Notes: generated by a model not told the origin, from the sequence alone. Shown: positions 31,200-64,000, counted from the first letter of the stretch. The stretch is DNA of 64,000 bases from Deltaproteobacteria bacterium (GCA_002731275.1 PCBK01000098.1:62001-126000); one strand, 5' to 3'. Program-made: numbers and translations.

Positions 31200-31327
31200 T
31201 ATATCTTTCCTTTCGTCCAAAGGCGTAGGGATACCTCCCATCAAACGCTTTCTATTGTGCGTCAGGATACTCGATCATGTGATGTGAAGCCATTGAAATA
31301 TCGATGGGGATGGTGTGGGGAGTTCAA

Positions 31328-33229
31328 TTATTTGGTGTTTTGGGCAGGCGTGCTTGTGGGTTGTTTGATCACATTGAATTGAACGCGCCTGTTTTTGGCG
31401 CGGTTCTCTGTGGAGGTGTTGGGGACGAGTGGTTTGTTCATCCCGTAACCCTCGTGGGTGAGACGTTTTGCGTCGATTTTGCCGCGCGTGACGATAAATT
31501 GGAAGACCGCCTCTGCCCGTTTTTTCGAGAGGTTCATGTTAAAGGTTTTGTCACCGACATCGTCTGTGTGCCCTTCGATACGAAGGCGCATCTTGGGACG
31601 ACTCTTGAGGACAGAGATGACCTGCTCGATGATGCCATATGAGCGCTTATTGATGGTGGCGCTTCCTGTCTTAAATTCGATCTTTTGAAGGATCTTGATC
31701 TCCTCTTTGGTGACCTCGATCAGGACTTTTTTGGGGCATCCGATTTTGGTCTTCTTCGTGGCGACTTTGACCCCTGGCACATCAGGGCACGCATCGAGTC
31801 TATCGATAATACCGTCTTTATCACGATCAGTATCTGGGCAGCCGTTGTTCTCTTTGGGGCCTTTTTGCTTGGGGCATTTGTCGATGTTGTCGGTCAAGCC
31901 GTCTTTATCTTGATCTCCCCAGGGGCATCCTTTGTTCTCTTTCGGGCCGCTTTTTTCCGGGCATTTGTCGATGTTGTCAGTTAAACCGTCTTTGTCTTTG
32001 TCTCCCCAAGGACAACCATCGTTCTCTTTGGGACCTTTCTGTTTGGGGCATCGATCGATGTTGTCTGTGACGCCGTCTTTGTCGATATCTGTGAGTGGAC
32101 AACCTTTATTGAAGGTCGGACCGATCTGTTTGGGACATCGATCCACGTTGTCCTTGAGTCCATCGCCGTCAGAGTCTGGCCAGGGGCAACCCCGGTTTTC
32201 TTTGGGGCCTTCGACACTTGGGCAGCGATCAATGTTGTCTGTGAGGCCGTCTTTGTCGCGGTCGTACTTACGTGGTGCCCACGTGACACCCCCAAGGGCG
32301 CGTAGCGTTGGTGTCCCATATCCTGCGATGATGCCGACCGCGACACCCAATTGGACGGCAAGATCGAGATTGGAAAGAGGGTAGATTTTTGCGCCGATGT
32401 AAGCGTCAATGGGGATTTTATTCCATGTCATCTCTGTGGAGAGAATCCCTGAACCGGTCAACTCGAAAATCAGGTCCAGCGTATTAGGGGCGACCCGAAG
32501 CCGACCTCCGAGGCTGTAAAAGAGTTCATGTTGTAGATCGAGATCCACAAATGTCGTGGGAGGGAGATAGCGATATCCTACGTTCAAGGCCAGTTTAAAA
32601 GACTGGAAGCGTTTGCTAAGCGCGAGGAACCCACCCAATCGGAAGCCATCTTCTCCATTGAAGCGTTGTGTGTCTCCTGTTGGGGCACCCGCATACAACA
32701 TAAACGCCAGTGAGACAAAGTGTTTGTGTTCTTGAAGAGCCTGTAACTTCACACCGAGTTTGAGATCGGATAAGGCGAAGCCTGTGACGCTCTGATCGCG
32801 ATCTGCATCTGCAAACGCCGGATGGTCTGGGATGTGACCTGTTTGATACAGGGTCATGGGGAGGACGAGATGGACGTCAAGCCAGGGGAGGATCCCGAAT
32901 CCTGCGGCGAAGTCAGCACCTATTTGATGTGAGATGATGGGGACGCTTCTGCCGCCTCCACCTTGCGCGACCATCGGGTGATGTCCGTAGTTGACGAGGA
33001 AGCCAGCGTGGTACGAAAATTGTCCAAGAGTCTCGCCTGATTGGGTCTGAAACATGCCTCTTGGATCAAACCAGGGGCGGAATTGTTGAACTTGAAATGC
33101 CCTTGTCGTCGACTGAGCTGATGAGATAGATGGGGAGAGGATACCTACACAGAGCAACTGGAGAAAGAGATAATATCCAAACCAGGTGTGTGTGGTGGAT
33201 GGTTTGTATGTGAGCGGCTGCGTGAACAT
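31328..33229 (-). CDS. OmpA-family outer-membrane protein with thrombospondin type 3 repeats
   Basis: A 633-residue protein. A signal peptide (cleavage probably after SISSA) is followed by a beta-barrel-like region of about 280 residues with alternating aromatic strands. Six TSP3 calcium-binding repeats (residues about 320-481) each carry D.DKDGLTDNIDKCP and a GCP motif. The C-terminal OmpA domain (about 500-625) holds KIEFKTGSATI and RIEGHTDDVGD...LSKKRAEAV, which bind peptidoglycan, with the conserved Asp and Arg present. Proteins of this plan tether the outer membrane to the cell wall. GGAG lies about 11 bp upstream of the ATG. It is 82 bp downstream of the giant gene A on the same strand with no evident terminator between, so it may be the last gene of that operon. 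Confidence 0.9.
   Translation of the reverse strand: MFTQPLTYKPSTTHTWFGYYLFLQLLCVGILSPSISSAQSTTRAFQVQQFRPWFDPRGMFQTQSGETLGQFSYHAGFLVNYGHHPMVAQGGGGRSVPIISHQIGADFAAGFGILPWLDVHLVLPMTLYQTGHIPDHPAFADADRDQSVTGFALSDLKLGVKLQALQEHKHFVSLAFMLYAGAPTGDTQRFNGEDGFRLGGFLALSKRFQSFKLALNVGYRYLPPTTFVDLDLQHELFYSLGGRLRVAPNTLDLIFELTGSGILSTEMTWNKIPIDAYIGAKIYPLSNLDLAVQLGVAVGIIAGYGTPTLRALGGVTWAPRKYDRDKDGLTDNIDRCPSVEGPKENRGCPWPDSDGDGLKDNVDRCPKQIGPTFNKGCPLTDIDKDGVTDNIDRCPKQKGPKENDGCPWGDKDKDGLTDNIDKCPEKSGPKENKGCPWGDQDKDGLTDNIDKCPKQKGPKENNGCPDTDRDKDGIIDRLDACPDVPGVKVATKKTKIGCPKKVLIEVTKEEIKILQKIEFKTGSATINKRSYGIIEQVISVLKSRPKMRLRIEGHTDDVGDKTFNMNLSKKRAEAVFQFIVTRGKIDAKRLTHEGYGMNKPLVPNTSTENRAKNRRVQFNVIKQPTSTPAQNTK
31772..32263 (-). 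repeat. TSP3 calcium-binding repeat array
   Basis: Six in-frame copies of about 87 bp (29 residues) encode D.DKDGLTDNIDKCP..GPKEN.GCPWGD. Cys pairs and Asp ladders in each unit are the calcium-binding signature of thrombospondin type 3 repeats. The third to fifth copies are nearly identical in protein sequence. Confidence 0.85.
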
Positions 33230-33311
33230 AGGAATGTGTGCTCCATCAAGAGGTCTTTTCCAAACTCTTTTTTATCCCACGGCCCAAGGCCTAAAGAGGG
33301 TCATCGATGAA

Positions 33312-36300
33312 TCAAGGGGCAAGCTGCCAAACGAGGACGTCACTGCCATTTGAGGTCAGATTGGTTCCACCCAACGTACCCGCACCGTTAAGGGAGCCTG
33401 TAATGAACACATTGCCATTCGCGAAGGTGATGTTGTTCACGACTTCCTGACCTGTGCCTGATGAGTTTCGAACATACTCAATGCTGCCTGAGGCGTTGAC
33501 TTTGATAACAAACACATCAATGTCTGCCGAAGTGTATGGCGTTGTGCCAAGTGTGACGGGTTTGGCGTTTTGAACGGTAGTGTTGATGTAGCGGTCTCCG
33601 TTGGGTGATACGGCCATCGAGACGCGATTGAGATTGGTACCTACGAGGCTGTTTACATCACCAACATTGATGCCTGAGAGCCATTTCCCTGTGGAGTCGA
33701 TACTTGCGAGGAAGATTCTGTTGTTCAATGTCTTTTTATTGATTGCATACGTACCCACAGAGAAGTCTCCTGTTGCGTACCCCGTTGTGTGCATCACATT
33801 GTTGCTGTCTATGGCAATTTTGAATGGATAGACGATGACATTTGCTGTATCGGAGGAAAGTCTGACCCATTGCCATGTCCCTGTGCTGTTGAGTTTTCCT
33901 ACAAACATAGGCCTTCCGTTTGTCGTGACTGTCGCGCTCACAGTTCCGAATGTGTATGTCCCTGTGTTGTTCAAATAGCCGAGCACATAAACATTTCCAC
34001 CTGAGTCTGTTGTGAGGGCGTGTCCACGAGCTTGCAAAGTCGCGTGATTGCTGCTTCGTGCGGTCCATTGGTGGACTCCATTGGTGTTTAATTTGGTGAC
34101 AAAAGTCTCCAGGGCATTGGACGCGGTGGTGATCGCCGGGCTTCCCGCAACATTGAAGGTTCCTCCTGCATAACCAGTGAAATAGACATTTCCTTGTGTG
34201 TCGACATGGAGTGCATTTTTGTCTGTGTAGAAAGTGCCTCCCACTGTTGATTTTGCCCACGTGGGATTCCCAAGGGTGTCGAACTTTGCGACGATCAGTT
34301 TGTGGTTGCTGTTAAATGGGGTGCTTGCGAGAGTCACGTTTCCATTGTCGTTGTATTGAAGTGTGTAAATGTTTCCGACACCATCGACCATAAGTCCTCT
34401 CGGATGGTCGTGATTGGTTCCTGAGAGACTTCTTGCCCAGACGACGTCACCGCTGGCATTTAATTTGAGCAGAGCAAGATCAGCGCCACCACCCGCTGAG
34501 AGTGTGACGGGCCCACCTGTTGTTGTGAGTGTGAGTGTATTGTAGTAATTGCCCAATACATACACATTGCCCTGCTTGTCGACTGCGATGTGTTCGCCAA
34601 TCTGTGTATCTGCAGCGTTGACATTGTTGATGATGGGGGTCGTGCATGTGCCAGCCCCACAGTACTGTGTGGCGCCACATGCAGTGCCACATGAACCGCA
34701 ATTGTTTTTGTCGGATGATAGGTCTGCACAACCTGTCGCTGCACAATAGAATTGCTTGGAAGGACAGCTCAATGGGATCTGCCAGATAAACATATCGTAG
34801 GCGTTGGAGCGGAAGGATGTACCACCGAAATTACCCACACCAAAGAATTGACCCACGAGATAAAGCGCTTGGTTTTTGTAAAGAATGTTGAGCGCTTGTT
34901 CTGCGCTCGTTCCTTTCGAGCGTGCGACCCATTCGACGTTGTCTGATGTGTCGACTTTTATCACGATGGCGTTGTTGTTTCCTGTGGGGGTGAGTGGGAT
35001 TCCATTGATTTCGGTTTTAGGGGAGTTTCCTCCCACCGTGCTGATGTAGCGATTTCCTGAGGGATCAATGTCCATGCGGACGAAGGTCGGATTTGCGATA
35101 TCTTTTCCAAGCCGTTTGGCTGTTTTCCAGGAGCCAGCTTTGTCAAGTGTCAGAAGGAACAGATCATCGGTCCCTGTGCTTTTGTTCACAGTAAGCGTTC
35201 CAGCCTGGAAGCTACCTATTCTAAAGTATCCGGCAAGGTGGATCTTTCCGGATGAATCGACTTTGATGGAGTAAGGTTGGACGATCGCGTTGCTGGTGTT
35301 GCTGGTCGCTCTAGCCCATTGCCACTGTCCTGATGCATTGAGCTTCGCGACAAAGACATCCTTTCCATTTGTGTGGCCGATAGTATGTGTTCCAAACGTA
35401 TAACTACCCGCAGTGATCAGCTCTCCTGTGGTGTATACGTTCCCAGAGGCATCCGTTGTGATCGCGAAGCTTCCGGCCAATCGATTTGCATGATTGCTCG
35501 ACTGAGAGACCCACTGTAGGTTTCCTGATGTGTCGAACTTGGCGACAAAGACCTCCCAAGCACCGGCTGCGGTTGTGCGACTTGAACTTGCGACACTGAA
35601 TGCGCCAGAGGCAGCAGCGTTAACGAAGACGTTACCTTCTTCGTCAACATGGAGCCCACCGCTTGAGACGTTTGTACCGTTGATAGCTTGTGACCAGAGG
35701 TAGCCCCCGTTGGGGTCGTACTTGGAGATGATGATCTTGTCAGAGGGAGTGTATGTTTTTCCTGGAAGATTCACTGTTCCTCCAAGATTTTCTTGTAGGA
35801 TGTAGAGATTGCCTCGCTTGTCGACGCCTAATCCCCTTGGTTGATCTGTGGCTGTACCGCTTGGTGAGAAGGCATGGACAATATTGTTACTTCGATCGTA
35901 TTTGAAGACAAAGAGGTCTGTACCCCCGTATGTCGAGAAGTTGATCGTTCCTTGCTGTGTGACGACAGAGAAAGCGTTGGTGTAGTAGCCAAGTGTATAA
36001 ACATGTCCGGATGGATCGACAGCGATGTGTGTCGCGGTTTGGTTGTTGGTGATATCTTGGGCGTGTGTGATGGGTGCAACACAACTGCTTGTAAAGCAAG
36101 ACTGGGTGCTTGAGCAAGTGTTGCCACAATCACCACAGTTATTCTTGTCGTTTTGAACGTCTTTACAGCCGTTTGTGCCACAGAATTTACCTGCATTTGG
36201 GCAGGTTGTGGGGAGCTTCCAAATAAAGTAATCGTCATCTAATGTGAGCGTTGGCGCTTGTGGGGGACCGTAGAGAGAGATGCTGCCGTTTGCCCGCCCT

Positions 36301-39300
36301 GTGACGTAGAGTGCGTTGCGACTAAGCGCCATTCCAAGTGGATGTTCGGTTCCACTGCCTTTTGTTTGCTGAACCCATTCGATTGAGCTTTGTTGATTGA
36401 TTTTTACGACAAGAGTGTCAATTGCGCCGTTTGTTGAATACGTCTTTCCTTGTACTGTAATGGAGTTGCTGTTGAGAGATAGGAGGACAAACCGATTGCC
36501 TTGTGTGTCGACGTGTAAGAGCAGATTGTCTTGACCTGTGTATATCCTTCCTAAATCAAGCGCAGACAGCCATGAGCCTGTGCTATCCATTTGAGCGACA
36601 AAGACTTGTTTTGCTCCTGCTGAACTCGTAATACCAGAGCTACCGAAGCGAACGAGTCCATCTGACACATAGCCGCTGAGATGGATAAAGCCTGCAGTGT
36701 CAGCCACAATCGAGTTGGGTATCGCTGTATATGTGCCTGTTCCTGATGTGCTGCGAACCCACTGCCAGGCTCCGCTACTATCGATTTTAGCGACAAACAA
36801 TTTTTGGGGGTTATTGATACCGACACTCGCGAGCTTTGTCCCGAAGTTGTATGTCCCAAGGCCTATAAAATATCCTGTCACGAAAACATCACCATTTGTG
36901 GTGACTGTGACTGCACGTGTGCGTGCTTGTTTGTTTGCGTGGTTTGTCGTATTGGACAGCCATAACACTTTTCCTGTAGGGTCGAGTTTTGCGACAAAGG
37001 TCTCATGGGCACCAGACGCGGCTGTCACACTTTTCCCTGCGATTGTGTATGTTCCACTGGCATATCCCGCCCAGTAACTGTTTCCTGCCTCATCGACGTG
37101 GAGTCCATTATGGGTGCTGATCGTTGTTGCGGTTGCTGCTTTTGACCACACTGCATTCCCAAGCGAGTTGAACTTGGTGAGAATTTGTTTGTGTGTGTTG
37201 TTGTAGTTGGTCGTGCCAACGGTGATATTCCCTCCGGCGTTGGTTTGGAGGACATAGATATTGTCTTGTGCATCAACGTGAAGACCATTGGCTGCGTCGT
37301 CACCTGTACCGGAGATACTCTTCGCCCATATCAAACCTCCAGAGCCGTCCAGTTTTACAAGGGCGATGTCTTCTTGGCCTTTTGCTGAAATGATCGCGTT
37401 ACGTTGTGGGGTTGTGAGTGTCCAGGTTTGACTGTAACCCACAATGAGGATGAGATTGCCTTGGCTATCTACTGCAATATGTGTCCCTAGTTGCGCGGTG
37501 CTGTTGGCGACTTGTATTTTCTCGAGAGTCGTATATTGACAGGCACCATCAACACATGTGTCTCCATGTGGGCAGGTAAATCCACACGTTCCACAATGAT
37601 CTTTGTCGGTTTGAAGATCCGTACATATCCTCGCATTGTTGCCAACAGAACATTGTGTCTCTGTTGTACTACAAGTGATACATTTACCTGCTGAGCAAAA
37701 TGCTGGATTTGTGCATGCGTTTCCACAACCACCACAATTGCTGTCATCATTTACAATGTCCAAACATTGTCCGACGCTACTACAAAAGGCTGTTCCTATT
37801 GGGCATTGGCATTGACCACGCACACAACTGAAGCCTGATTTACAGCACCCTGTTCCACAACGAGTTTCTCCACTTTGACATGATGTTGGACATTTATTTT
37901 GGCATTGACATGTGCCGTTGACACAATTCCAACCAAGGGCAGTGTTACAGGTCGTGCCACACGTCCCACAAGTCGAAGCGTTGGAAGAAACATCGACACA
38001 AGTCGAACCTGCAATACATGCAAGTTGCCCACTTTGACAACAAGTCATAAGGGCGAGCTTTTTGTCCCCTCCAATCAATAGCTTCGAACCATCTGAGTTG
38101 ATCGCAAAGCGACCCACTGTCGAGCCTGCTCCATGCTTGAGGACTTTGTTGTAGGGGGCTTGTACATCGACATTCCACTGTTCGACGCCAGGGATGATAA
38201 TGCTCGCGCCGTCGGGGCTAAAGATCACATCAGATTTGTAGGCTGTCCCACCACTTGTTGAGTTGAGATTGCTCTTGACCGCAGGCGTCGCTGTGGGAGG
38301 AGAAGCGTTGAGTGTCCAAACAGTGACGCTGAGATTGGTGATGGCTGCGAGTTTCAGGTTGTCTGGAGAGAAAGCGAGACCTGTGACATCTGTTTGTGCA
38401 GCTGCTGTAAGAGAGTAAAGTAATTGTGAGCCTGTCGATGTGAAGGACCATATGTGGACGTTTTCAGTTCCTGTTGCTTTGCGTTCAGAGCTTGCGAGCA
38501 TCTTTCCATCGGGACTGAAGGCGACCGATTTATGCTCTGTCAATCTTGAGTAAGGTATGCCGTATGCGATCGTTGGAGGGGTTTGTGTCAGGTCGATGAT
38601 GTCAATACCATTTCTCCCTCTGGCGATCGCTGCGTACTTGCCGTCCTTGGTGATATCGATATCTGCACAGTTGTTTGCATTAACCTGTTGGGTCAAGCCT
38701 GTTTGGGTGTCCCAGATCCTGAGTCCTTCGTAGGGGTTACAATAGAGGACTTTGGTCGTGTTGGGGATGAACTCTGTGATGGTTGGGTTGGTTGAAGGTG
38801 TATTGTTCTCGTTGAGATCGTAGGAGCGAATCAAAACGGGAGGTGTTTTGGTGGCATCCCATGCGCTGAGACGTCCTTTTTGTGTACCACCATCGCCATA
38901 CTCTGCGAGGACAAAGACCTTGTCATCGGATGAAAAGTCGATATCGGAGACCCGGCCTAGGATACTGATCAACAATGAACTGTCAAGGCACAGATCGGGG
39001 ATAGGACTACATTTGTTTCCGGAGAGAACGGTCCCTGACGGACATTGACACACACCTTGTGTACAGAGCTGTCCGGTTTTGCACGCCGTCCCACAGGCTC
39101 CACAGTGGCTCGTGCTGCTCTGAAGGTCAATACAGAGTCCCGGTGAAGTCGCACATGTGGTTTGTGACAGTGTACAGCAAGACCACTTCATGATCTGGCC
39201 TTTGCTGTTGTGTCCGGTCCACACAACGTCTTGGTTGGGGTGGTACAACGCTGCCGCGATGGTTCCTTGTGAGGTGACGCCGATCGTGCGTTTTTTAGTC

Positions 39301-42300
39301 GCTGTCGCTGTCGAGATATCCCACTCTTCGGCGTGTGTGTCGTAAGTGACAAGGATTCTTTTGCCTCCTGGTCGGAAGGTCACGGCTGTTGGATTGAGTG
39401 GTAGGGTGATGTCATGTGTGAGGGTTGGGGCATTGGTCCCATTGTATGTAAAGACTTTGGCTTTTTTATCTTCGCCGACAGATGCGATCTTGCTGCCATC
39501 ATCGCTAAAGGCGACACCCACAACGTCAGCTGTATGGTTGGTGATGCGGTGTGCAATTTTGAGCTGGAAATTGGTAGAGAGGTCCCAGATAATCACCGTT
39601 TTATCGAGTGAGGCGGTGGCAAAGAACTTCCTATCTGGTCGCAGCGCGAAGGCTGTTGTGGAGTCTGTATGGCTGCGATTGTAGCTTCCTATTGCTTGGG
39701 GTGTTTGTGGTTTTTTGACATCGAAGAGGTAGTAGTTTTCGTTTGATGTGCCAACAAGAAGTTGCTCGTCATTTTTGATGAAGGCGACAAATGTAAGGGG
39801 TTCTTGGTTTGCGACCTGGAAGTTTTTGATCTCGGTGTTGTTTGCGCTTGTGTCGAAGACCGAAACATAACCATCTTTTCGCCCTACAAATACGTATTTT
39901 TTGTTCGCGCTGACGGCGATGCTAAGGGGTTCATCTGTTGTTGCGCCTGCAGGACCGACGGCGACAGGCGGTGTTTGTGAGATGTCCCAGATGCGGAATG
40001 TTTTGTCCTCTGAAGCGGAGAGTAACCACATGTTATCCCTGGAGACAGCGAGAACATTGACCGTGTTGCTGTGCCCAGAGAGTGCGGTGGAACCACCAAA
40101 TCCACTAGCACATTGACAGTCTCCACTGGCGCAACTCGAACCTTGTGGGCAGGTGTTGTTACAAGCACCACAGTGTTGTTGAGAAGAGGCGAGGATGTAG
40201 CAAGCGCTGGAGCAGAGTTGTTGTCCTGTTGGGCATGATTGACATACGCCTTGTACACACGTCTGGTTGCTTGGACATGCATTCCCGCACGCTCCACAGT
40301 GAGTGTTGTTGGAGAGGATATCTGTACATGTTCCGTTGCAAAGCGCCTCACTGGAGAGGCAAGATACGCAGCCACCGTTGATACAAGTTTCGTTGTTGGC
40401 ACAGGTTGTCCCACAGATACCACAGTGTTGTCTGTTGTTGGTTGTATCCGTACAGACACCTGCACAGGATTGTTGTCCATTGGGGCAGTTGGGTTGGGAA
40501 TAGGATACGACATAGTGGTCGACTTGACCTGCCGCAGTGAACGTTTGAGTGCCAAAGGTCGCGGTTCCCTGGTAATTTCCAAAGAGGTAGATGTTACCGG
40601 AACCATCAGCTCCAATGAATCTGTCTTTGATGGGGGAGGTTGCGTGTGAGCCTGTACGAGACCACGTAAAGGCACCTGTTGGTGATACCTGCGCAGCAAA
40701 TACGTTCTCTGCGCCGTTTACAGCGGTATGAGGTTGGAAGATGGAGACATCTCCTGTCATGTTACCGATGATATAGATGTTGCCGTTGACATCTGTGGAG
40801 ACATCTTGGACGCTCTCGTCGGCGGTATTTCCACCTACAGGTGTTGTGAGCCATTTCCAGCCTCCGGAAGTGTCCATTTGCGCGACGAAGAAGTCGAGAC
40901 CTGCGACTGCCGCGACGTTGATCGTATTGAAGGATGCTTGTGACTGGAAGTGTCCGCCGAGATAAATGTTGTCATTTTTGTCAATCGCGATGGCGTTGAT
41001 TTTGTCTTCGCCTGCTCCTCCTCCAGTTTCAACCCACTGGGCCTTTCCTGTGCTATCGAGCTTGACGATGATCGCATCAAAGTTACCGAGGCTTGTGTAT
41101 GTGTTTTGTCCAATTTTAAGTGTCCCTGTGAAGGCTCCTACAACATACACGTTTCCAGCGCTATCTACCGCGACGTCGTTGATCTCGACATCGTGTTGGA
41201 CCTTCGCCCATACCCAATTCCCGCTACTGTCGAGTTTGGCGATAACATAACTACCTGCACCTGATGAGGAGAGTGTCGTCGTACCGAAGGTCTCCGTACC
41301 ATTGAGGAAACCAATAAAGTAGACATTACCCGACGCATCGACTGCGAGTCGTTTGCCTTCGATCTTGCTGGGATCTCCCTTGCTCTGTGTGGCCCAGATG
41401 ACATTGCCATTGCTGTCTAGCTTGGTCACGTACGTCATTGAGCTTGACGAAGGCGTCAACGTCGTCGTACCAAAGGTGAGCTGGGCAGAGACTGTGCCTG
41501 TGATGTAGATGTTGTCGTTTTTGTCGACTGCGAGGCCATACAAGAAGGTATCAAGACCACTTCCAACAGAGTAACTCCAAAGCACTTTACCTTGTGGATC
41601 ACGTTTGTAAACGAAGATATCGGAGCTTCCCGTTGCTCCAATCGTATGAGGAGCGGCTAAGAAGCCACCGTTAAACCGCCCTGCAAGGATAGCGTTTCCT
41701 TTGCTGTCGAGTGTGGCGTTTCTGAGGTTTTCGGCAACCAAACCACTTGAGCTGCTTGTGTTCGTCGCGTTTCCTTGCTGCTCGCACTTGCCAAGCTTGC
41801 AGATCTCGCCGTGCTGACAGGCACTACCGCACGCCCCACAGTGGTTGAAATCAGCTTGGGTGTCCACACATTTGCCATAGCAGGATATGGGGGTGGCTGT
41901 GGGACAACCTGTGCATGTACCATTCGTGCAGATCTGCTTTGCAACGCAAGATGTGGAACAGTTTCCGCAAGTGTCTGGGTCACTTTGGAGGTCTTTGCAT
42001 TGTCCAGAGCATAGTGTCGCTCCGCTGTCACAACATCCCCAAACGCGCATATGGTCGACCCCACCACCGCCTGCATATAGATGCGTTCCATCTTTGTTGT
42101 ACAACAAGGCGTGGACCAACGAGAGGCCTTGTACGCTGAGTGTGGCGATATTTTGTGGGGGACTCTTTTGAAGATCCCATAATTTGATCTGGCCAGCATA
42201 ATCGCCGGATGCGAGGAGATCGTTGCTCGGATGGAACGCCAGGCTCATGACCTCTTTGGTGTGTCCACTCAGTGTGTGCTTAAGTGTGGGTGGAGATTGG

Positions 42301-49205: not shown

Positions 49206-49257
49206 TTGGGTGTCTCCTGTGTGCTGTGTATATCGCATCGTCTGTGTATCCATCGAT

Positions 49258-53307: not shown

Positions 53308-53332
53308 AGGTTTACTCCACAAGAGTCGTTGT

Positions 53333-56300
53333 TTAATGACATAGCCGGATGGGACCGACTTCAATGCTGCATGTTCTGCCTGAAGCGGTACAACCTGTCG
53401 CGAGTTGGCACTTGGGCAGGCACTTTTTGCCGCTACCATCGTCATGACAGACAAGAGACTGACCGTTTTGACAGCGCTTTTGGAAGGAGTCACATTGTTG
53501 GTAATCCAACGCTGTCCCCGGCACAAAGCAGTATTTATCTGAGCGGAACTCCGAGAACGTCTCGCATTTTCGGCTTCCAGTACAGTCACTGTCCACGTTG
53601 CATCCTTTGAGGCAGATTCCTTTTGCACAGTTGGCACCTGACTCACATGTACAGGTCAACCCTGTAAGACATGTGAGTTTTCCTGTCTCACAAGCAGTGC
53701 CTTCTTGAGCGGTCGGTTGGGGGACACAGTATCCTTTTCCTGCGACCCCTTGTAAGGCTTTACATGCAGCAACAGGCGCGCCGTTTTTGTCGAAGCATTG
53801 CGATGATTGTGTCGGGTCACATGGTCGAAGACAGATACTCTGGATACATTGCAACCCTGGTTCACATTGTTGTGTGGGGGAGCCCGATGAGCAGGCTTCG
53901 TTTTCTTTTTTGAGTTTTAGACAATAACCATTACCTGTCCCAAAAATCAGGCATGTTTCGCCTGTTGGGCAGTTTTGGTTCTGTGTTGGATTGCATGGAG
54001 CGCGACAGAAGGCCGTATTTTGCTGCGCATCTCCGATACACAACAGGTTGGATGTGCAGCGTTTATTGATCACATCGCAAGCATCACCGGCTTGTTGTGT
54101 TGGGTTCTTCAAGCAAAATCCTACGGTGTCACTGGCGTTGAACTTTGTACAGGATTGGGATGTCGGACACACGCCACTTTGACTCGGAGCACAAGACTGA
54201 AGGCAGACGTTACCCGTTGCACTTTGTACACACGTGAGTCCCTGCAGGCAGTCTTTGGTTTGTGTACAGAACTCGCCGACTTTTGCGGTCCCTTTGGGTT
54301 CACAGTACGCGCTGTTTTGGTTGAGTCGCTGACAAACAGAACCTGCCGGGCATGTGTTGGGAGTTTGTGTGTCACAGGTTTTGAGGCAGACAGATGGGAC
54401 ACCGGCCTTGTGTCGACAGACGAGCCCTGTCACACAGCGTTTGATCGTGCCATCACAGGGTTGTCCTTGTTGTTGGCTGGCGTTGTTCAAGCAGAAGTTG
54501 ACGTTTGCGCCGGCAAAGAGTGGGGCACAAGTTTGCGATGTACTGCATGTGTTGGATGGACCTGATGTACATGGTTTCAAACAATAAAATGCACCTTGAC
54601 TCCACTGACACTTCAAGCCTGTCAAGCAGCGCATCGTAGGGGAACACTGTTGACCTTCTTGTTGTGTTGGAGTGGGGAGACAGACTTTTGTGTTGGTTTC
54701 AACTTCCTGACATGTCTCGCCTGTAGAACATACGCTGTTTGTATTACAAGTCCGCAAACAGAGGAATCTGGAGTCGACATTTTGACAGACGAGTCCACCT
54801 TGGCAGCGGTTGTTGAGGTCGCATTGACCGCCTTTGGCGACGCTTCCTTGGTTGAGGCAGTAGCGATCGTTTTGGTTGTTGACGAGTCCCTGACATGTGC
54901 GTGGTTGGCCGCATGTGCTGGCGTTTTGCTGGCATGCTGTGAGGCAGACACGCGAACCAAATGCGCCGCGACAGATCAGGTTTCCTCGGCAGGCATCACC
55001 GAGTGCACAAACCTCACCTTCAAGACGCCTTCCGCTGATCAGACAGTAACCTCTCTCGCCTTGCTCAATGTAGCAGGAACGGCCCGAAGGACAGGATTTG
55101 GTGCCGTCGGCTGTGCAGTAGAATTTACACACACCTGCTCCGTTGGCACCGAGACACAAACTTCCAGAGACACAACGGTCTTGGCTGAGTTGGCAGGGTT
55201 GACCTTCTTGTTTGGTCGGCGCTGGGAGGCAGTAAGAAGCTTGTTGGTCGGGAGAGTAGGATTGGCATGTGCGTCCTTGTGAGCACGTGTTGGTGCCTGT
55301 GGTGGAGCAGGGTTTCAAACACCTCCCTTGTCCAAGGTCATCGATACACTTGAGTCCACTCTGACAGTCGCTGTTTTGGTTGCAACGTTCGCCTTCGATG
55401 GCGTTGCCAACAGGCACACATACACTCGAAGTTGCGTTGATTCCGACACATTTTGTCTGGCTTGGACAGGTTGGATTTTGCAGGTCGCAGGTCTCATAGC
55501 ACTTAAACGTGTTTCGATTATTGAGACATATTGCACCAGATTTACAGCGTTGTTTGACACCATCACACACATCACCTGCGTTTTGGGCGGCTGGAGCAAA
55601 GCAAAAGTACAACGAAGAGGTCGGGAGTAAGCGCTGACAGGTTTGTGTCGATTTGCACTGCCCTTGCTGTGAAGGTTGACACGGTTTTTTACAGTATCCA
55701 CCGTTGAGCCCGACGACACAGTTGAGCCCTTTGATACAACGTTTGTTGTTATCGCACGTTTGGCCTTCGGTCTGTGTGCCATCTTTCAAGCAGAAGGTGA
55801 CCCTATTGGTCGTCGTTTGTGTGCAGGTAAATCCTCCAGGGCAGGTATTGTTTGTGTTGAGCGTACACTGTTTGTAACAGAAGGCATTCCCTGTTGTCCC
55901 GAGACAGACGTTACCAGAGACACAGCGTTTGTCGATACCGTTGCACGCATCTCCTGTCTTCTGTGTTGGTGGCTTGTAACAGAATGAGAGGGCGGAGACT
56001 GGATCACCTTTTTGGCAGGTCCGACCGCTTGGGCAATTGCTCCCTGGTTGTGTGGGGTCGCAAGGTTGCACACAGTAATTGACGCCGAGATTTTCCTGAC
56101 AATAGAGCTGTGAGGTGCACTGGAGCGTCCCGCCGCAGCGTTCATCGATGAGCTGCGTCCCGTCACGAACGCAGATGTCGATCAGGTTTTTGGGTCCTTT
56201 TCGACAGCTGTAGTTGGTCGCGCAGTTGTTGGTTGCCTGGTTGGTGTCGCAGATCGTGTAGCAGCGACCCTCTGTGTTATCTCCGAGGCAGATGTGGTTG

Positions 56301-59300
56301 TTGACACAGCGTGCAGTCAGATGGTTGCAGACGTTGCCTTGTTGGATGCTGGGCGTGGGGAGACAGAAGTAGCGTTTGAGTGTCGGATCAAAGGCCTGAC
56401 AAGAGGTCCCTTGTGCACAAGTACCACTCTTTGTTGGATCGCAGGGACGAATACATTGGCTTTTGTTGAAGCTTGCAGCGCAGACAAGGCCCGGTTCACA
56501 TCGGAGCTGGGCGTTGCAATAACTGCCTTCTTTTTGGGTCCCCTGTTTGAGGCAGTAAAACCCATTTGTGCTACTTTCACACGAGAAGTTGGTGGGACAG
56601 ACGACACCCTGGAATGGATTGCAGCGCTGTTTACAAAAGCGGCCAGTTGTCGACTTAATACAACTGAGTCCTTGTTTACATCGGAACGTCAGCCAGTCAC
56701 ATGGGCCGTCGAGGTTGCGGACCTGTGTAGGGAGGCAAGCATACGTCGAAGAGCCATCGAAGAGTTGTTGGCATGTTTTCCCAACCCCACATGCATTGCT
56801 CTGATTGGGGCGACACGGTTTGATGCATTTGCGCTTATCTTCGTCGAGTTGGCAGATGAGGCCGGAGATGCAGCGTTTGGTCACTGCGTCGCACTCTTCG
56901 TCTTCTTTTTGTGAGGGGAGTTTTTGGCAAAATCCCTGCCCAGAGGCGTCAAAATCACAAAGTGTACCTGTTGGACATTGCCCTGTTTGACGGGGATCGC
57001 AACTCTTTGCACAGTAGCTACCTACACCAGCCTGACTTTGACTTCGCAAGCAGCTCGCGTCTGGCGCACATGGTTGGGTCGTCAGGTTACACGTCTCGCC
57101 GAGCTGTCGGCTCTGTGTGTTTCGACAGATGCCGCTCTTTGCGTCCGCATACAGGCGCGCACAGAAGTAGTTTTGAGGGCATTCGTTGGTCTTGGTGGGG
57201 TCACAAGATTGTTTACAGGTAAAGTGCGGAACAATCGCGAAGAAGCTGCTACAGGTGAGCCCTGAGATGCATCGATTGACGAATGGATCACACTCTTCAC
57301 CCATCGAGCGAGTGGGGGCTCGCTTACAGTAGGACGGTTGATCTTGCTCGCACACAAAACCTTGTGTGCAGTTATTTGATTGTTTGGGATCGCAAAGTTG
57401 GTGACACGTTTGTTGTCCGAGAACACCTCGGCAGATGAGCCCTGGAAGGCAACGTTGTGTGTAGTTGCAGGGGTCGCCAAGTCCTTGTGAAGCTTTGGCG
57501 ACGCAACGATCGGGTGCGTTGGTGTCACCTTGTTCACAGAAGGAGTTGACTGGGCACTGGTTACTGCTCTTGCTCGCATCACACTGGAGGTAACAGTAAG
57601 CGGCGTATGCGTCGCCTATACATGCCTGGCTGGTCCCACATCGCTTGAGGATACCGTCGCACGATTCACCGATGGTTTGTGATGGGTTGGGAAGACAGTA
57701 AAATGTGTTTGCGTCAGGTGTGACGCCCTGGCAAGTGCGTCCACTCCCACAGCTGTTGGGAAGCCTTGGGTCGCAGGGCAAAGCACAAACAGGTGGATAC
57801 AATTTGGAGCGCAGACAGCGCAGCCCTTTCACACATCGTAGGGAGATGTCATCACACGGGAATAGCGCCTTTTGTGTACCTTGTTTTTGACAAAACCCTG
57901 CCGCAGCACACTCGAAACCTGTTCGGCACTCTCCGACCTTTTGTGGATTGCAAGGCTGCATACACAGAGACTCTCCATCTTCTCGAATCGTGCGGCACGC
58001 GAGACCTTGTGCGCAACCTCTTGTGAAGTCACAGACTTCGCCTTCACGTTGGCTACCGGTGGGTTGGCAGACGTTGAGCTGTGCGTTGATCGCGTAACAG
58101 GTCTCATTTGCGCCACAAACTCCAGATGTACCGGGGTCACAAATACGATGGCAGATGGAGAGTTGGCTGCCGCGAAATCCGACACAAGCCATCCCTTGTT
58201 GGCAGGGGAGACTCAAATCGTCACAATCTTCTCCAACGCTTTGTGAGCGGGGAGCACCACAGTAGTAAGCGTTGTTGAAGCTCTGACAGAGCGTCCCTGT
58301 AGGGCAGTCATTGCTCGTGTTCGGGTCACATTGCTTGCGACAAAAGGAGCCTTTTTGTGTGTTGATGCACCGAAGGTCACTTGTGCAACGATTGCTTATC
58401 AAGTTGCAAGATTCACCTATTGTCCGCGTTCCGGCCTTCAGGCAGTACGAACGTCCAAGAGCATCTTTTGTGCACGTTTGGCCTCCTGTACAAGGGGTGT
58501 TTGCGTCGCAGCGTTGGAAGCAGATGGGTTGTCCGAGGTCGATACAGATCAGGCTCGATACACAAGGTTTGTTGACTGGATCACAAGATTCACCGAGGCG
58601 TTGGGTTCCTTGTGTGACACAATAGTGTGCTGTGCCTGTTGTGGCTTTTGTACAGGTCGCGTTGAGCGGACAGGTGTTGGCGACGTTGGGGGTGCACTTG
58701 AGCATACAGCGACTATCACCGGGTGTTAATTCGACACAAAGGGTTGTGGAGATACATCTCTCAGCAACACCTGAACCACACGGATCACCCACCTGTTGAG
58801 TGGGGGGACCAAATTGGTCCTGGCAGATCCCGCCGAGGTAGGACTGATTGACCGCGTTGAGGCAGAGCTGGCTGTTCTGGCAGAGTGGGTTGTTGCGCAC
58901 ACCGCGTCTGGGATCACAGGCTTTTGCGCAGGTCCCACTGAGACAGACGAGCCCGTCAGGTCCATTACACTGAAGCTCCACACGAGCATTTGAGCAGGTC
59001 GATCCTTCTGCGAGAGAGCCGTTCTTTTGGGTGTCTTGTGGGAACGAACTACAATATCCTGGCGGAAAGGTCGTCGAGAATTGACAATACATACCTGCAG
59101 GACAGGTCGAACCGACGATTACGCCGACTGAGGGATTACATGTTATGGCACATGGAGCGCCGGGGGAGGGACGGAAGCAGTTGTTTTCAGGGATTTGTTC
59201 AGAGGACGTTTCGGGAGCGCGCTCTGGTGAGGTCTCTGGTTGGGTCTCGGGGAGCACTTCTTGTGTGCCACCGTCCGGTATTTGTTCGGTTGGATTTGCT

Positions 59301-59974
59301 TCGGAGGCGATACACTTTCCACCGATGGCAGTACACTTGTTGTCGAGACGGCAGGCGTCACTCTCTAGACAGTCGCTGTCGTTGAGGGCGAGACAGGTGT
59401 CACTTCTTCGTGCACAGAGACCTTCTTTTTTGCAACCTTCGCTTTTTTTACAGAATGCATCAGAGAGAGTGCAGCGGCTCTCTTCGAGGATGCATTTGTT
59501 GTCCTGTTTGCAGAGCGTGCTCTCGGCACAATCTTGTGAGGAGCCGATGATACATTTATTGAATGTTTGATCGAGTGTACACAGCGCTTCTTTGGTGCAG
59601 CCGTCATGTGTTTTGCAGTATCCATCTGTGATCTCGACACATTGACCTTTACGTGCAAGGCAGAGGGCATTTTTGGAGCATTGGATCGATTGTCGACATT
59701 CAGCATCAGTCGAGGCGATACAGCGACCGTTGTCATGTGTACATTCCCCGAACTCTTTACATATATCGCTCTGTTGGCAATGTGCATCATCACGGGCGAC
59801 ACATTGTTTCTCTGAGGCGACACAAAGACCGGCACGTTTGCAGTCCGGATGATTCTGGCAGGTCACGTCGTTGACATCACCACATGCTTGAAAACACAAC
59901 AAGGTGAACGTCAGCAGCGCCAGACAAATGCCCGAAATGCGTGTAGGTTGGTTGTTTCGATGTTGAAAAGTCAC
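53333..59974 (-). CDS. Gene C: exported protein built from two kinds of Cys-rich module
   Basis: About 2213 residues. The GTG at 59974 is used: it overlaps the stop of gene D as GTGA, and GGAG lies 8 bp upstream. The signal sequence ends FTLLCFQAC, a lipoprotein-like Cys31. Residues about 35-225 hold eight or so short modules of the gene D type (C..S..C...G.C......C). A Pro/Glu/Ser-rich linker (about 225-270) follows. The remaining 1900 residues are about 30 modules of 50-60 residues with 8 Cys each, opening with T.EGESCD or similar and containing C.....L.C......C...CDP....C..G..C. No enzymatic motif was seen. All module types have even Cys counts, consistent with full disulfide bonding outside the cytoplasm. 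The module family is unknown to me beyond resemblance to EB/Dickkopf-like Cys patterns. Confidence 0.87.
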   Translation of the reverse strand: MTFQHRNNQPTRISGICLALLTFTLLCFQACGDVNDVTCQNHPDCKRAGLCVASEKQCVARDDAHCQQSDICKEFGECTHDNGRCIASTDAECRQSIQCSKNALCLARKGQCVEITDGYCKTHDGCTKEALCTLDQTFNKCIIGSSQDCAESTLCKQDNKCILEESRCTLSDAFCKKSEGCKKEGLCARRSDTCLALNDSDCLESDACRLDNKCTAIGGKCIASEANPTEQIPDGGTQEVLPETQPETSPERAPETSSEQIPENNCFRPSPGAPCAITCNPSVGVIVGSTCPAGMYCQFSTTFPPGYCSSFPQDTQKNGSLAEGSTCSNARVELQCNGPDGLVCLSGTCAKACDPRRGVRNNPLCQNSQLCLNAVNQSYLGGICQDQFGPPTQQVGDPCGSGVAERCISTTLCVELTPGDSRCMLKCTPNVANTCPLNATCTKATTGTAHYCVTQGTQRLGESCDPVNKPCVSSLICIDLGQPICFQRCDANTPCTGGQTCTKDALGRSYCLKAGTRTIGESCNLISNRCTSDLRCINTQKGSFCRKQCDPNTSNDCPTGTLCQSFNNAYYCGAPRSQSVGEDCDDLSLPCQQGMACVGFRGSQLSICHRICDPGTSGVCGANETCYAINAQLNVCQPTGSQREGEVCDFTRGCAQGLACRTIREDGESLCMQPCNPQKVGECRTGFECAAAGFCQKQGTQKALFPCDDISLRCVKGLRCLRSKLYPPVCALPCDPRLPNSCGSGRTCQGVTPDANTFYCLPNPSQTIGESCDGILKRCGTSQACIGDAYAAYCYLQCDASKSSNQCPVNSFCEQGDTNAPDRCVAKASQGLGDPCNYTQRCLPGLICRGVLGQQTCHQLCDPKQSNNCTQGFVCEQDQPSYCKRAPTRSMGEECDPFVNRCISGLTCSSFFAIVPHFTCKQSCDPTKTNECPQNYFCARLYADAKSGICRNTQSRQLGETCNLTTQPCAPDASCLRSQSQAGVGSYCAKSCDPRQTGQCPTGTLCDFDASGQGFCQKLPSQKEDEECDAVTKRCISGLICQLDEDKRKCIKPCRPNQSNACGVGKTCQQLFDGSSTYACLPTQVRNLDGPCDWLTFRCKQGLSCIKSTTGRFCKQRCNPFQGVVCPTNFSCESSTNGFYCLKQGTQKEGSYCNAQLRCEPGLVCAASFNKSQCIRPCDPTKSGTCAQGTSCQAFDPTLKRYFCLPTPSIQQGNVCNHLTARCVNNHICLGDNTEGRCYTICDTNQATNNCATNYSCRKGPKNLIDICVRDGTQLIDERCGGTLQCTSQLYCQENLGVNYCVQPCDPTQPGSNCPSGRTCQKGDPVSALSFCYKPPTQKTGDACNGIDKRCVSGNVCLGTTGNAFCYKQCTLNTNNTCPGGFTCTQTTTNRVTFCLKDGTQTEGQTCDNNKRCIKGLNCVVGLNGGYCKKPCQPSQQGQCKSTQTCQRLLPTSSLYFCFAPAAQNAGDVCDGVKQRCKSGAICLNNRNTFKCYETCDLQNPTCPSQTKCVGINATSSVCVPVGNAIEGERCNQNSDCQSGLKCIDDLGQGRCLKPCSTTGTNTCSQGRTCQSYSPDQQASYCLPAPTKQEGQPCQLSQDRCVSGSLCLGANGAGVCKFYCTADGTKSCPSGRSCYIEQGERGYCLISGRRLEGEVCALGDACRGNLICRGAFGSRVCLTACQQNASTCGQPRTCQGLVNNQNDRYCLNQGSVAKGGQCDLNNRCQGGLVCQNVDSRFLCLRTCNTNSVCSTGETCQEVETNTKVCLPTPTQQEGQQCSPTMRCLTGLKCQWSQGAFYCLKPCTSGPSNTCSTSQTCAPLFAGANVNFCLNNASQQQGQPCDGTIKRCVTGLVCRHKAGVPSVCLKTCDTQTPNTCPAGSVCQRLNQNSAYCEPKGTAKVGEFCTQTKDCLQGLTCVQSATGNVCLQSCAPSQSGVCPTSQSCTKFNASDTVGFCLKNPTQQAGDACDVINKRCTSNLLCIGDAQQNTAFCRAPCNPTQNQNCPTGETCLIFGTGNGYCLKLKKENEACSSGSPTQQCEPGLQCIQSICLRPCDPTQSSQCFDKNGAPVAACKALQGVAGKGYCVPQPTAQEGTACETGKLTCLTGLTCTCESGANCAKGICLKGCNVDSDCTGSRKCETFSEFRSDKYCFVPGTALDYQQCDSFQKRCQNGQSLVCHDDGSGKKCLPKCQLATGCTASGRTCSIEVGPIRLCH

Positions 59975-62900
59975 TTCACACACTCCAAAGATCCTGTTTG
60001 TGTATTGACCTGTAGTGTTTGTCTTTGGTCTCCGATACACGATGTGCATTTTTTACAGTCGAGTGCCGAGAGCAATTTGCAACTCCCCTCAAAAAATGAG
60101 CAGGCCGCTTCTTCTTTGCACAGTCTGCCTTTCTCGCAGTCGCGGCTGTCAGACGGCCCACAGTATGCGGTCCCGTCACTGTTTGTGAGCCGAGTGCAGG
60201 CTCCCTTCTCACCACAAAGGTCGCTGTCATCGCAGTCTTTTTGTTGTCCAGGCTGACAGGCGTTCCCTCGCCTCACACAATTTCCGAGCGCCCGGCAGTC
60301 TGTCGCGTCTTTGCAATGGTCATCTGTTCCTGGAGCACAAAAGACTTGGCGGCCTTGTGGATCTTCCACGATGGTGCGTTTGCAGCGTCCATGTGCTTTG
60401 CAGTAAGCGCTCTTACTACAGTCATCGTCTGTCAGTGGACCACAGACGGATTGTAGCTTTTTGCACTTGCCTTCGTTGGTACAGGCTGGACTGTTTTCGC
60501 AATCTTTGTCGTTACGTGGGATGCAACGTTGATTGCTCAACCCACACAACCCTTGTGCTGTACAGTCTTGACTGTCTTCGCAGTGCTTTTGGGTCGTGGG
60601 GATACAGAGTCTACCTGAGCGTGTGCATTTTCCCGATTGCGTGCAGGATGTGCCTTGTCCACACACAACACACACAAAGGCCTTCGTGTCTGCTGCACAT
60701 TTTCCTTGGCTGATGCAGACCTGGGCGTTTTGGCAGCTGTTGTCAGTCTTGGCGACACAGCGACCGTTTGTGTTGGTTGTCCCTGCTTGGAAGTCACACA
60801 GTCCATCGACCCGGCAGGATTGGCTAATACGGCAGTCTGCATCGCTTGAGGGGGCGCAGGTGCTCCCTTGGGAGGTCGTGACGAGAGAGCAGGCGCCTGT
60901 GCTTTGGCAGCCTTCACTGCGTCGACAATCACTGTCTGAGAGGCGAAGACAGGCGTTGTTTTGTCTCGTACAAAATCCCTGCTTCTTGCATCGCTCACTT
61001 TTCTCACAGTTGGCGTGGGTGTTGGCGATACATGAGAGGGATTGTGTGGCAAATCCGCATCTGCCTTCTTTTGTACAAAGGTTACTCAGAAGACATCCAT
61101 TGGCAGTCGCGATACACCGACCATCTTTCTCGGCACAGAGGCCCAGCGTTTTGCACTCTTTGCTGTTAAGGCAGTCGGTGTCTCCTCGCGCACCACATCG
61201 GGCGTATCGTGGCCCTTGTCTGATCGCGCCACAGTGTCCCTTCTCGTTACAGTAAGTGCTGCGTTGACAGTTGGCATCTGAAAACGAACCACACCGGCTC
61301 TCTGTCGCGTTGAGGCGTACAAATTCACAGAGCCCTTCATCTTTGCAAACATCGCTGTTTGCGCAGTGCGTGTTGGTCTTTGGTTGGCAGGTTGTCGTGG
61401 TGTTGAGCTGTACGACTTCGCAACGTCCTTCTTTTTGGCAGAGGCCGCTGTCGATACAATCCTGATTGGTGAGAGGCGCACAGCGCACGTTGTTGGCATC
61501 AAATGAACACGCTGCGTTGGTTTTGCACACTGTGCTTTGTTTGCAGTCGGCGTTGCTCTTGGGGACACATCGCTTACTGTTCGTGTCCCAGTGACAGCGG
61601 CCATCTGTTTGGCAGAGTTCGCTCTTTGCGCAGGCCGCGTCACTGCCTTGTACACACGTTTTTGTCGTGCTTTGGTACAGGCACGCGCCGATCTTGGTGC
61701 ATGTCTCGGTCAACGCACAATCTTGATCACTTTGGAGGCTACACGTTCCGTTTGTGGAGAGAGAACAGTGACCCTTTTGTTTACACTGGGTGCTGTTTTG
61801 ACAGTCGATGGTTCCGTATGCAACGCACTTGTTGTTTGAGCGAACACAGCGACCTTCTTCTGTACAAGCCGTGCTCTTTCGGCAATCCTCGTTGCTTTGG
61901 ACGACACAGTTGTTGTCGACGCGATGACAGCGACCTTCCTTTTGGCAGCCTTCGCTGCGACGGCAGTCAAGGTCGTAAAGCACCACACACTTGCCATTGA
62001 CGACATTGCAGCGGCCTTGTTGTTTACACTGATCTGAGAGGTAACACCACGTACAGACAGGGGAAAGACCTGACTTGTAACCACATTTGTTTCCGGCTGT
62101 GCATCCACTACTGGCCTCACATTTTTCGTCAGATGTCGCGATACATCCGAGGACCGGGCTGAGTGTGCAGCGGCCTTCACTTTGACAGAGGGAGCTCTTC
62201 TTGGTGCAGTCGTCGGTGTCTTGGAAGACACAAGTGTGGGTGCTCAACTGGTATGTGCAGCGACCTTGTGTCTTGCACAGGCTACTTTGGAGGCAGTCTT
62301 CTGGCTTGGTGGCCTGACAATTGCGGAGCGCCTGGGCATTTCCCTGACAAAGACCTTCTTCCTTACAGAGGCTCGAAGAAGCACACAGGGCGGGGACTGG
62401 AATGCAACCTTCGCCAACACGTTGTTTGACGCACCGTTTGTCTCTGCTGCAGGCTTCTGATGTCTTGCAATCTTCATCACCCCCAATGATACATTCTCCG
62501 GTCGCATTTGAACGAGTGCATCGACTTTTTACTTTGCAAACACTTTTGTTAAAGCAATCTTTGTCAGAGCCAACAACACAAGTCCCTTCACCGAGGATGT
62601 CTTTTTTGAGCGTACAAGTCCCGCTATTATCGCATTCCGTGCTGGTTTCGCAGTCTTTTTCATCTTTGGCAACACATTTTGTGCGGTCCTCACTCAGGTA
62701 ACAGAGGCCTTGTTCGCTACATTCAAGGCTGTCCTTGCACACGACACAGACGCCTTTGCTCGAACGTCCACATTGTCCTTTGTTGTTACAGATTTGACTG
62801 CCTACACAGTTTGTCGCGATACAGTGGAAGGGGGAGATGGTGCAATTGCGCTCTGGAGTGCAAGCGGTGCATTGACCGAGGAGTGTGCATTCTTCGCTGT

Positions 62901-64000
62901 TTTGGCACTCTGCGTCGGAGTCCGCAACACACGCGCCACGGAGAGCTGTACAGCGCCCTTGAAGTCGGCAAGCATCACTCTCCTTACACTCTGCGTTTGT
63001 CCCGGCGATGCAAGAGGGGGAGGCGTTTGGATCGGGGTTGCGTGTGCACAGTCCGTCTTTTTTGCAGGCTTCACCGAGTGAACAGAGTACGCACGTCCCA
63101 TTTTGTAAGGCGCAACGTCCATCCTTTCTGCACCCCAAAGAGGACGAACAATCCGATGGCGCTTTGCTTACACAGGCACCATTCTCCAGGGTGCATCGTC
63201 CGTCTTGAAGGCATCCTTTGGATTGGTTGCACAAGACACATTGATCGTCTAATTGACCACATTTGTTGTTGCTTGTGCAGGCTTCCGAGCGAGCACAGTC
63301 ACTGTCACCTTGGACGACACAGGCAAACTGCCATATTTGATTGCGTTTTACGTGTTGTCGTGTACAGCGTCCTTCTTTTTGGCAGCCTTCGCTCTGTTGG
63401 CAGTGGTTGTCTACACCTGGAGCGCAGTAAATTTCGGGGACGACATTGCCGATGTAGCGTGTCGAACGAATACACCGTCCTTCTTTTGTGCAGGCTTCTG
63501 AGCCTTTGCAGTCAGCGTCTGATTGGATCTCACAGCCAGCGAGGCCATCCTGGCACTTGCCCTCTTTGGCACATTCGAGTGTCTTTTGACAGAGGTTGCA
63601 ACCAGCTCCCTGGCAACGAAGTTCCTGGAAAATACGTGTTTTTCCCTGTGTGTCAGAGATCGAGAGGGTGGCGTTTCTGTTCGATCTGTCGAGCTTCCAT
63701 GTCCCGCGAATGGTCGTATTGGGGAGCGTTGTGGGGAGGAGATTGGGCTTGCAAGGTGAGATTCTTCTCGTCTGTTTTCGTTCAGGTGTGAGTGTGAGTG
63801 TGTTGTCGACGACTGCGATCGTGCCTTTTTCGACGATGAAGACCCCTGCGGCTCCTGCACAGTCTGGATCATCTTGCTTGGTGAATTTGCTGTAAGTGTA
63901 CTTGCCGCCGAGGAAGAAACTAAACGCTTCCGTATCAGCTGCGACGAGCTTTGGTGGATCGCCTCGTCGCTCGAAGACCTGGATGGTTGGGATACGCCAT
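59971..64000 (-). CDS. Gene D: Cys-rich repeat protein, 5' end outside the window
   Basis: The frame is open from the stop at 59971 to the window edge, giving 1342 visible residues. There is no ATG between 63234 and the edge, and the TTG at 63234 is mid-repeat, so it is not a start. The first 120 or so visible residues are not Cys-repetitive: they have beta-like segments such as FFLGGKYTYSKF and TIRGTWKLDRSNRNATLSIS, suggesting a lipocalin-like domain. From about residue 128 to the end I count about 42 modules of some 27 residues, each with 4 Cys: SDADC..SEACTKEGRC........CV. Consecutive units differ mainly between the third and fourth Cys. The role is unknown. It overlaps gene C by 4 bp (GTGA), implying translational coupling, and is the most upstream gene of the cluster seen here. 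Confidence 0.85.
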   Translation of the reverse strand, partial: WRIPTIQVFERRGDPPKLVAADTEAFSFFLGGKYTYSKFTKQDDPDCAGAAGVFIVEKGTIAVVDNTLTLTPERKQTRRISPCKPNLLPTTLPNTTIRGTWKLDRSNRNATLSISDTQGKTRIFQELRCQGAGCNLCQKTLECAKEGKCQDGLAGCEIQSDADCKGSEACTKEGRCIRSTRYIGNVVPEIYCAPGVDNHCQQSEGCQKEGRCTRQHVKRNQIWQFACVVQGDSDCARSEACTSNNKCGQLDDQCVLCNQSKGCLQDGRCTLENGACVSKAPSDCSSSLGCRKDGRCALQNGTCVLCSLGEACKKDGLCTRNPDPNASPSCIAGTNAECKESDACRLQGRCTALRGACVADSDAECQNSEECTLLGQCTACTPERNCTISPFHCIATNCVGSQICNNKGQCGRSSKGVCVVCKDSLECSEQGLCYLSEDRTKCVAKDEKDCETSTECDNSGTCTLKKDILGEGTCVVGSDKDCFNKSVCKVKSRCTRSNATGECIIGGDEDCKTSEACSRDKRCVKQRVGEGCIPVPALCASSSLCKEEGLCQGNAQALRNCQATKPEDCLQSSLCKTQGRCTYQLSTHTCVFQDTDDCTKKSSLCQSEGRCTLSPVLGCIATSDEKCEASSGCTAGNKCGYKSGLSPVCTWCYLSDQCKQQGRCNVVNGKCVVLYDLDCRRSEGCQKEGRCHRVDNNCVVQSNEDCRKSTACTEEGRCVRSNNKCVAYGTIDCQNSTQCKQKGHCSLSTNGTCSLQSDQDCALTETCTKIGACLYQSTTKTCVQGSDAACAKSELCQTDGRCHWDTNSKRCVPKSNADCKQSTVCKTNAACSFDANNVRCAPLTNQDCIDSGLCQKEGRCEVVQLNTTTTCQPKTNTHCANSDVCKDEGLCEFVRLNATESRCGSFSDANCQRSTYCNEKGHCGAIRQGPRYARCGARGDTDCLNSKECKTLGLCAEKDGRCIATANGCLLSNLCTKEGRCGFATQSLSCIANTHANCEKSERCKKQGFCTRQNNACLRLSDSDCRRSEGCQSTGACSLVTTSQGSTCAPSSDADCRISQSCRVDGLCDFQAGTTNTNGRCVAKTDNSCQNAQVCISQGKCAADTKAFVCVVCGQGTSCTQSGKCTRSGRLCIPTTQKHCEDSQDCTAQGLCGLSNQRCIPRNDKDCENSPACTNEGKCKKLQSVCGPLTDDDCSKSAYCKAHGRCKRTIVEDPQGRQVFCAPGTDDHCKDATDCRALGNCVRRGNACQPGQQKDCDDSDLCGEKGACTRLTNSDGTAYCGPSDSRDCEKGRLCKEEAACSFFEGSCKLLSALDCKKCTSCIGDQRQTLQVNTQTGSLECVK

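Follow-up and report, generated by a model that had tools for sequence, protein, structure and literature searches.

Giant cysteine-rich lipoprotein-like genes conserved beside a TraB-like gene in an uncultured, myxobacteria-like bacterium

A run of five genes, here named D, C, B, A and O, lies in a 64,000-nucleotide stretch of DNA (the window) from a Deltaproteobacteria bacterium (GCA_002731275.1, PCBK01000098.1:62001-126000). D, C, B and A encode giant cysteine-rich proteins that look like lipoproteins, and O encodes a protein resembling TraB of Myxococcus xanthus. The genes lie head to tail on the minus strand. Gene D occupies 59971-64000 and extends 674 bp beyond the window end, to a start at 64674 (C87:126674, C87 being the contig that holds the window), so that the C-terminal 1342 of its 1567 amino acids (aa) are in the window. 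Genes C (53333-59974, 2213 aa) and B (49258-53307, 1349 aa) start with GTG, while A (33312-49205, 5297 aa) and O (31328-33229, 633 aa) start with ATG. The gaps between them measure -4, 25, 52 and 82 bp, the first being the four bases (GTGA) shared by the start of C and the stop of D. Simple scans of the intergenic gaps found no terminator-like or promoter-like site on the minus strand; overall, the counts of such sites were close to those of shuffled sequence, not above them. The narrow gaps, the single strand and the lack of a terminator in the gaps support a single unit.

D, C, B and A together comprise 10,426 aa with 818 cysteines. A preliminary description of this DNA had reported the same five-gene run, with the same gaps and no obvious terminator, and more than 10,000 residues of disulfide-rich modules and beta-propellers. 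Both points agree with the coordinates and with the Stig1, SBBP and WD40-type domains found here. It had also listed four giants, all of which are present, but the unit is larger than that. Upstream of D on the same strand lie E1 (440 aa), E2 (256 aa), a 220-aa membrane-type protein and a 386-aa exported protein, as well as a lipoprotein, F (454 aa) and a 219-aa lipoprotein. E1, E2 and F, all outside the window, are made largely of the module that characterises D, and cysteine content reaches 12-14% in C, D and E. Lipobox-like signals, called by eye and by pattern, end in FQAC in C, FGGC in B and SVGC in A, as the preliminary description had noticed. Its list of three is incomplete, since D carries one as well (LVHC). 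The counterparts of E, D, C, B and A in G003, a genome from a different genus of the same family, have them likewise, and by appearance all five proteins look like lipoproteins.

Gene D encodes a lipobox-like signal, two Dickkopf-like cysteine units, an N-terminal domain of about 150 aa and then about 40 copies of a short repeat, the D-module. The module array (60079-63591, minus strand) follows a cysteine lattice of C-x5-C-x5-C-x(6-15)-C-x7 at about 27 aa per unit, and the consensus shared by D and E is DxDCxxSxxCxxxGxC. This consensus has no CxxC, CxxCH or histidine-rich signature, although C-x2-C occurs at eight places in the array, between units or at unit ends. Alignments of this module and of the one found in C used non-overlapping windows; overlapping versions were set aside because MAFFT aligned their overlaps. 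Across ten four-module stretches of D, all 16 of 16 cysteine columns are invariant. The module has no Pfam match up to E 10 and none in NCBIfam, and only E2 gave a match to DUF7107, which was below threshold (14.2 bits). AlphaFold2, given sequences from the window only, predicts a helix-helix-hairpin (beta-hairpin) for each unit (pLDDT 95.8, pTM 0.81). Against the PDB, the best Foldseek hit to this model had E 3.5 and a TM of 0.13, and none of seven aligned chains reached a Z of 2. The viral library BFVD held no match to the model, and a sequence profile of the module had one weak PDB match, to TSP3 repeats (E 0.01). In a set of 195 genomes from Myxococcota (the phylum of an Archangium metagenome-assembled genome), just three had a D-module match at 1e-10, and a single-sequence search of genome contigs with D found no relatives. 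The D/E module may be a previously undescribed repeat for which no solved relative was found, although a lack of matches is in itself no proof of a new fold. The N-terminal domain of D (residues about 226-360; 63591-64000, beginning outside the window) has no Pfam match at E 10 and is visibly conserved in the G003 counterpart (G003:C26:520220-525052).

Gene C begins with seven D-modules and continues with about 30 units of a second repeat, the C-module (53786-58789, minus strand), each of about 62 aa with eight cysteines. Its model is all-beta (pLDDT 88), and its look-alikes (knottin, Dickkopf and IGFBP) are weak, with Z of 3.2 or less and Foldseek E of 0.6 or more. A C-module profile likewise gave weak matches only in the PDB. 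At 1e-8, 73 of the 195 genomes mentioned above contain the C-module.

Genes B and A combine two other kinds of domain. B has ten Stig1 units (PF04885) and two seven-bladed SBBP propellers. A has 28 Stig1 units, about seven SBBP propellers and three of WD40 type, arranged as eight Stig1 units followed by propellers alternating with further Stig1 units. Both belong with the MXAN_6577-like cysteine-rich family (NF041328), scoring far over its cut-off of 100 bits (395.3 for B; 539 and 213 for the two halves of A). They differ from other members in that the Stig1 units are fused to many propellers and the proteins reach 1349 aa (B) and 5297 aa (A). Propellers in both proteins match the SBBP LipL53 family (NF047494), those of A also the WD40 type, and differ from known SBBP and WD40 propeller lipoproteins in standing in series with Stig1 units. 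A literature search on MXAN_6577 found nothing. Stig1 and SBBP sequences are strongly expanded in the window's own genome, where B has 249 matches across dozens of contigs.

Gene O encodes a signal, a TraB-like barrel region, TSP3 repeats and an OmpA domain, all on the minus strand. The barrel region (32270-33112) matches positions 9-384 of the exchanger_TraB profile (C87:94081-95130, 105.9 bits, E 2.3e-30). The TSP3 repeats (31730-32269) have DxDxDG motifs, predicted to bind calcium, and match PF02412 (60.7 bits) and PDB entry 5wtl (E 3e-56). The OmpA peptidoglycan-binding domain (31388-31675) matches PF00691 (E 1.1e-19), and this half of O aligns with TraB profile positions 321-502 at 154 bits. 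The best NCBIfam match of the whole protein is exchanger_TraB (NF033763), with 301.7 bits. O thus appears to carry the layout of TraB, namely signal, outer-membrane barrel, TSP3 and OmpA, the barrel being predicted from the profile. The preliminary description had recognised an OmpA/TSP3 protein, and both domains are present, so that O could anchor to the wall. An assignment of O to TraB itself was rejected on account of its score, and it is called TraB-like instead. Several TraB-like paralogues occur in the same genome. Among 21 TraB-like proteins, O and a G003 protein (G003:C26:493971-496025) are sisters with support of 98/98.

The G003 protein stands in a corresponding cluster. Contig C26 of that genome holds E-D-C-B-A-O in the same order and orientation, and thus shows the conserved synteny that the preliminary description had proposed to look for in relatives. 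Identities are 54% for E, 49% for D, 45% for C, 41% for B, 44% for A (over the first ~1600 aa only) and 48% for O. Module numbers in the two genomes are 15 and 15 in E, 39-41 in D, about 30 in each C, and ten Stig1 units plus 14 blades in both B proteins. The best module partners are collinear for 22 of 30 units in C and 12 of 15 in E, and only in part for D. In A, the N-terminal part is kept and the remainder beyond ~1600 aa differs; strict one-to-one conservation was rejected for this protein, as its distal Stig1 array is not collinear with that of its counterpart. Since a second genus, at 41-54% protein identity, retains the gene order and most of the module numbers, the linkage goes beyond chance. 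Kept module counts and collinear partners are what would be expected of stalks selected for length and order.

Directly behind the O counterpart in G003, one open frame runs for 12,240 codons (C26:457229-493951) and encodes 116 Stig1 units together with 28 propeller blades. Past it, on the opposite strand and at the other end of the cluster from that seen in the window's genome, F and E2 have counterparts of 49% and 45% identity. No other gene was clearly shared in the sampled flanks. Downstream of O, 83 bp away and on its strand, is a citrate synthase gene (29895-31244) that was not found beside the G003 cluster. The two genomes also have in common a second, shorter cluster, E'-C'-D' (C24:62770-71442 in the window's genome and C27:31932-40499 in G003), with no TraB-like gene in the stretch read, and contig C9 of G003 holds a third cluster type.

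Some TraB-like genes have cysteine-rich neighbours elsewhere in the class. The class, which comprises the same five genomes as the phylum, has 22 TraB-like genes. A large cysteine-rich exported gene lies directly before six of these 22 on the same strand, compared with six of 258 other genes (Fisher p 8e-5). This value is optimistic, because loci were picked for TraB-like or D-module genes and some pairs are orthologous. The neighbours include a MopE protein, an Ig-domain giant and trypsin-MopE proteins, and some have protease domains (trypsin-MopE, M10). The idea that a cysteine-rich partner accompanies each TraB-like gene was rejected as a general rule, given the genes that lack one. On contig C186 of the window's genome (16175-22938), a TraB-like gene comes 44 bp after the gene for an exported 1631-aa protein that has 26 Cu-binding_MopE motifs. 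TraB-like genes also follow trypsin-MopE genes, on contig C34 of the window's genome and on contig C31 of G003.

The preliminary description stated that no described system has this composition, and in doing so overlooked TraAB, the system of M. xanthus for outer-membrane exchange, the transfer of outer-membrane lipids and proteins from cell to cell. TraB, the anchor protein of myxobacterial cell-to-cell contact, consists of a signal, an outer-membrane barrel, TSP3 repeats and an OmpA domain, and pairs 1:1 with TraA, whose cysteine-rich region is a stiff stalk (PMC12045341). The M. xanthus genes traA and traB likewise lie next to each other, and both are required (PMC3325183). The present cluster is alike in placing genes for putatively lipid-anchored, cysteine-rich stalks beside a gene for barrel, TSP3 and OmpA. 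The match of O to TraB extends over the barrel half as well as the OmpA half. The cluster differs in having five large lipoproteins rather than one receptor, each with a putative N-terminal lipobox anchor rather than the C-terminal sorting tag MYXO-CTERM. It differs further in its stalk: the prediction for the D-module is helix-helix-hairpin, while the stalk of TraA has been described as made of beta-hairpins. PA14, the type of the variable recognition domain in TraA, was found neither in D or C at E 10 nor in B at E 0.001, and was not among the 25 best families listed for A. All five genomes of the class have MYXO-CTERM, with 19 matches in the window's genome, and none of 14 controls does; the lineage therefore uses myxobacterial surface sorting. 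Filing the cluster as TraAB was rejected because the TIGR04201 repeats and MYXO-CTERM of TraA are absent, and it is called TraAB-like for the same reason. Apilactobacillus kunkeei is a lactic acid bacterium without an outer membrane, and hence without a TraB-like barrel anchor. Its Giant1-5 are reportedly encoded by five consecutive genes for giant extracellular proteins (PMC12863079), and to that extent the arrangement is similar.

The explanation we favour, at about even chances, is that the cluster is one conserved unit, which builds a surface apparatus akin to an enlarged TraAB for adhesion between cells or between cell and surface. The genes would be co-expressed, and Sec would export E, D, C, B and A as lipoproteins, whose cysteines would be oxidised in the periplasm before the giants reach the outer membrane and are presented on the outside. 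D, E and C may form stiff, disulfide-stapled stalks, built in D and E from the helix-helix-hairpin repeat, while B and A would provide the binding parts, as beta-propeller heads on strings of Stig1 units. O would pass through the outer membrane with its barrel, span the periplasm with calcium-binding TSP3 repeats and grip the peptidoglycan with its OmpA domain. By contacting the giants, it could pass tension on the stalks to the wall, with adhesion as the probable outcome. The more specific claim that this is a new surface machine, with several giant lipoproteins made mostly of a stapled helix-helix-hairpin repeat and carrying about a dozen propeller heads, a TraB-like wall anchor and long, lineage-specific stiff contact structures, is tentative and rather doubtful. 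The earlier proposal of one system stands as regards a conserved, linked unit with export signals and many cysteines; the network or adhesive layer it envisaged is only one option.

Several observations weigh against the TraAB-like explanation. At E 0.1, searches of D, C, B and both halves of A found no TIGR04201 repeats, and no MYXO-CTERM on contig C87 was among the matches listed. The score of O lies far below the curated TraB cut-off of 700 bits, a value that none of the class's proteins exceeds. Of the six pairings of TraB-like and cysteine-rich genes, two are the cluster and its counterpart, another (trypsin-MopE) looks orthologous, and most TraB-like paralogues (16 of 22) have no such neighbour. 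The full cluster was found in only two of the five class genomes, and the other three have weak D-module matches only; since these genomes are incomplete, the unit is best described as conserved but patchy. Finally, the explanation requires giant lipoproteins to reach the outer face.

The same proteins might instead form a passive coat, protective or structural, in which a layer rich in disulfides surrounds vegetative or resting cells and O ties membrane to wall with no specific partner. The very high cysteine content of C, D and E, the conserved module number and the many further Stig1/SBBP proteins in the genome would all suit such a layer. Yet neither the roughly ten propellers of A nor its tail, which differs strongly between genera while the N-terminal part is kept, would be needed in a coat, and lipidated proteins beside a TraB-like gene fit tethered display better; we consider it unlikely. 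Less likely again is that the giants are separate lipoproteins binding polysaccharide or peptide substrates for feeding or predation, co-transcribed by chance, with O serving housekeeping stabilisation of the envelope. The wide occurrence of SBBP-propeller and Stig1 proteins outside the cluster is consistent with this, as are the protease domains beside some TraB-like genes, but six genes keep their order and mostly their module number between genera, and neither Pfam nor NCBIfam reveals a binding- or catalytic-like domain in D, E or C. The cysteines of the D-module could also bind a metal or a different cofactor rather than form disulfides, giving an array for metal storage or redox reactions, as its rigid C-x5-C-x5-C lattice and the putative metal-binding MopE repeats beside other TraB-like genes of the genome might suggest. 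This is very improbable, given lipoprotein-type signals that predict an oxidising location and a consensus free of metal-site signatures, even allowing for the scattered C-x2-C pairs.

The assembly holding the window comprises 10.75 Mb in 200 contigs, is 94.65% complete with 5.5% contamination, and yielded no 16S rRNA gene in a 16S search. Contigs C71 and C200, and likewise C8 and C191, carry matches with identical scores and lengths, which suggests duplicated assembly stretches.

If the TraAB-like explanation is true, the principle of TraAB, in which a lipidated, disulfide-stiffened stalk is tied to the wall by barrel, TSP3 and OmpA, would apply more widely, and on a far larger scale, than the M. 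xanthus pair suggests. It would also extend to a lineage of five genomes, classed as a separate phylum in the genome collection. The D/E module would then be a regular, very short disulfide repeat whose fold is predicted with confidence and matched no solved structure. It could help in annotating folds and serve as a rigid protein rod. With module numbers conserved, it can be tested whether the giants act as molecular spacers of fixed length.

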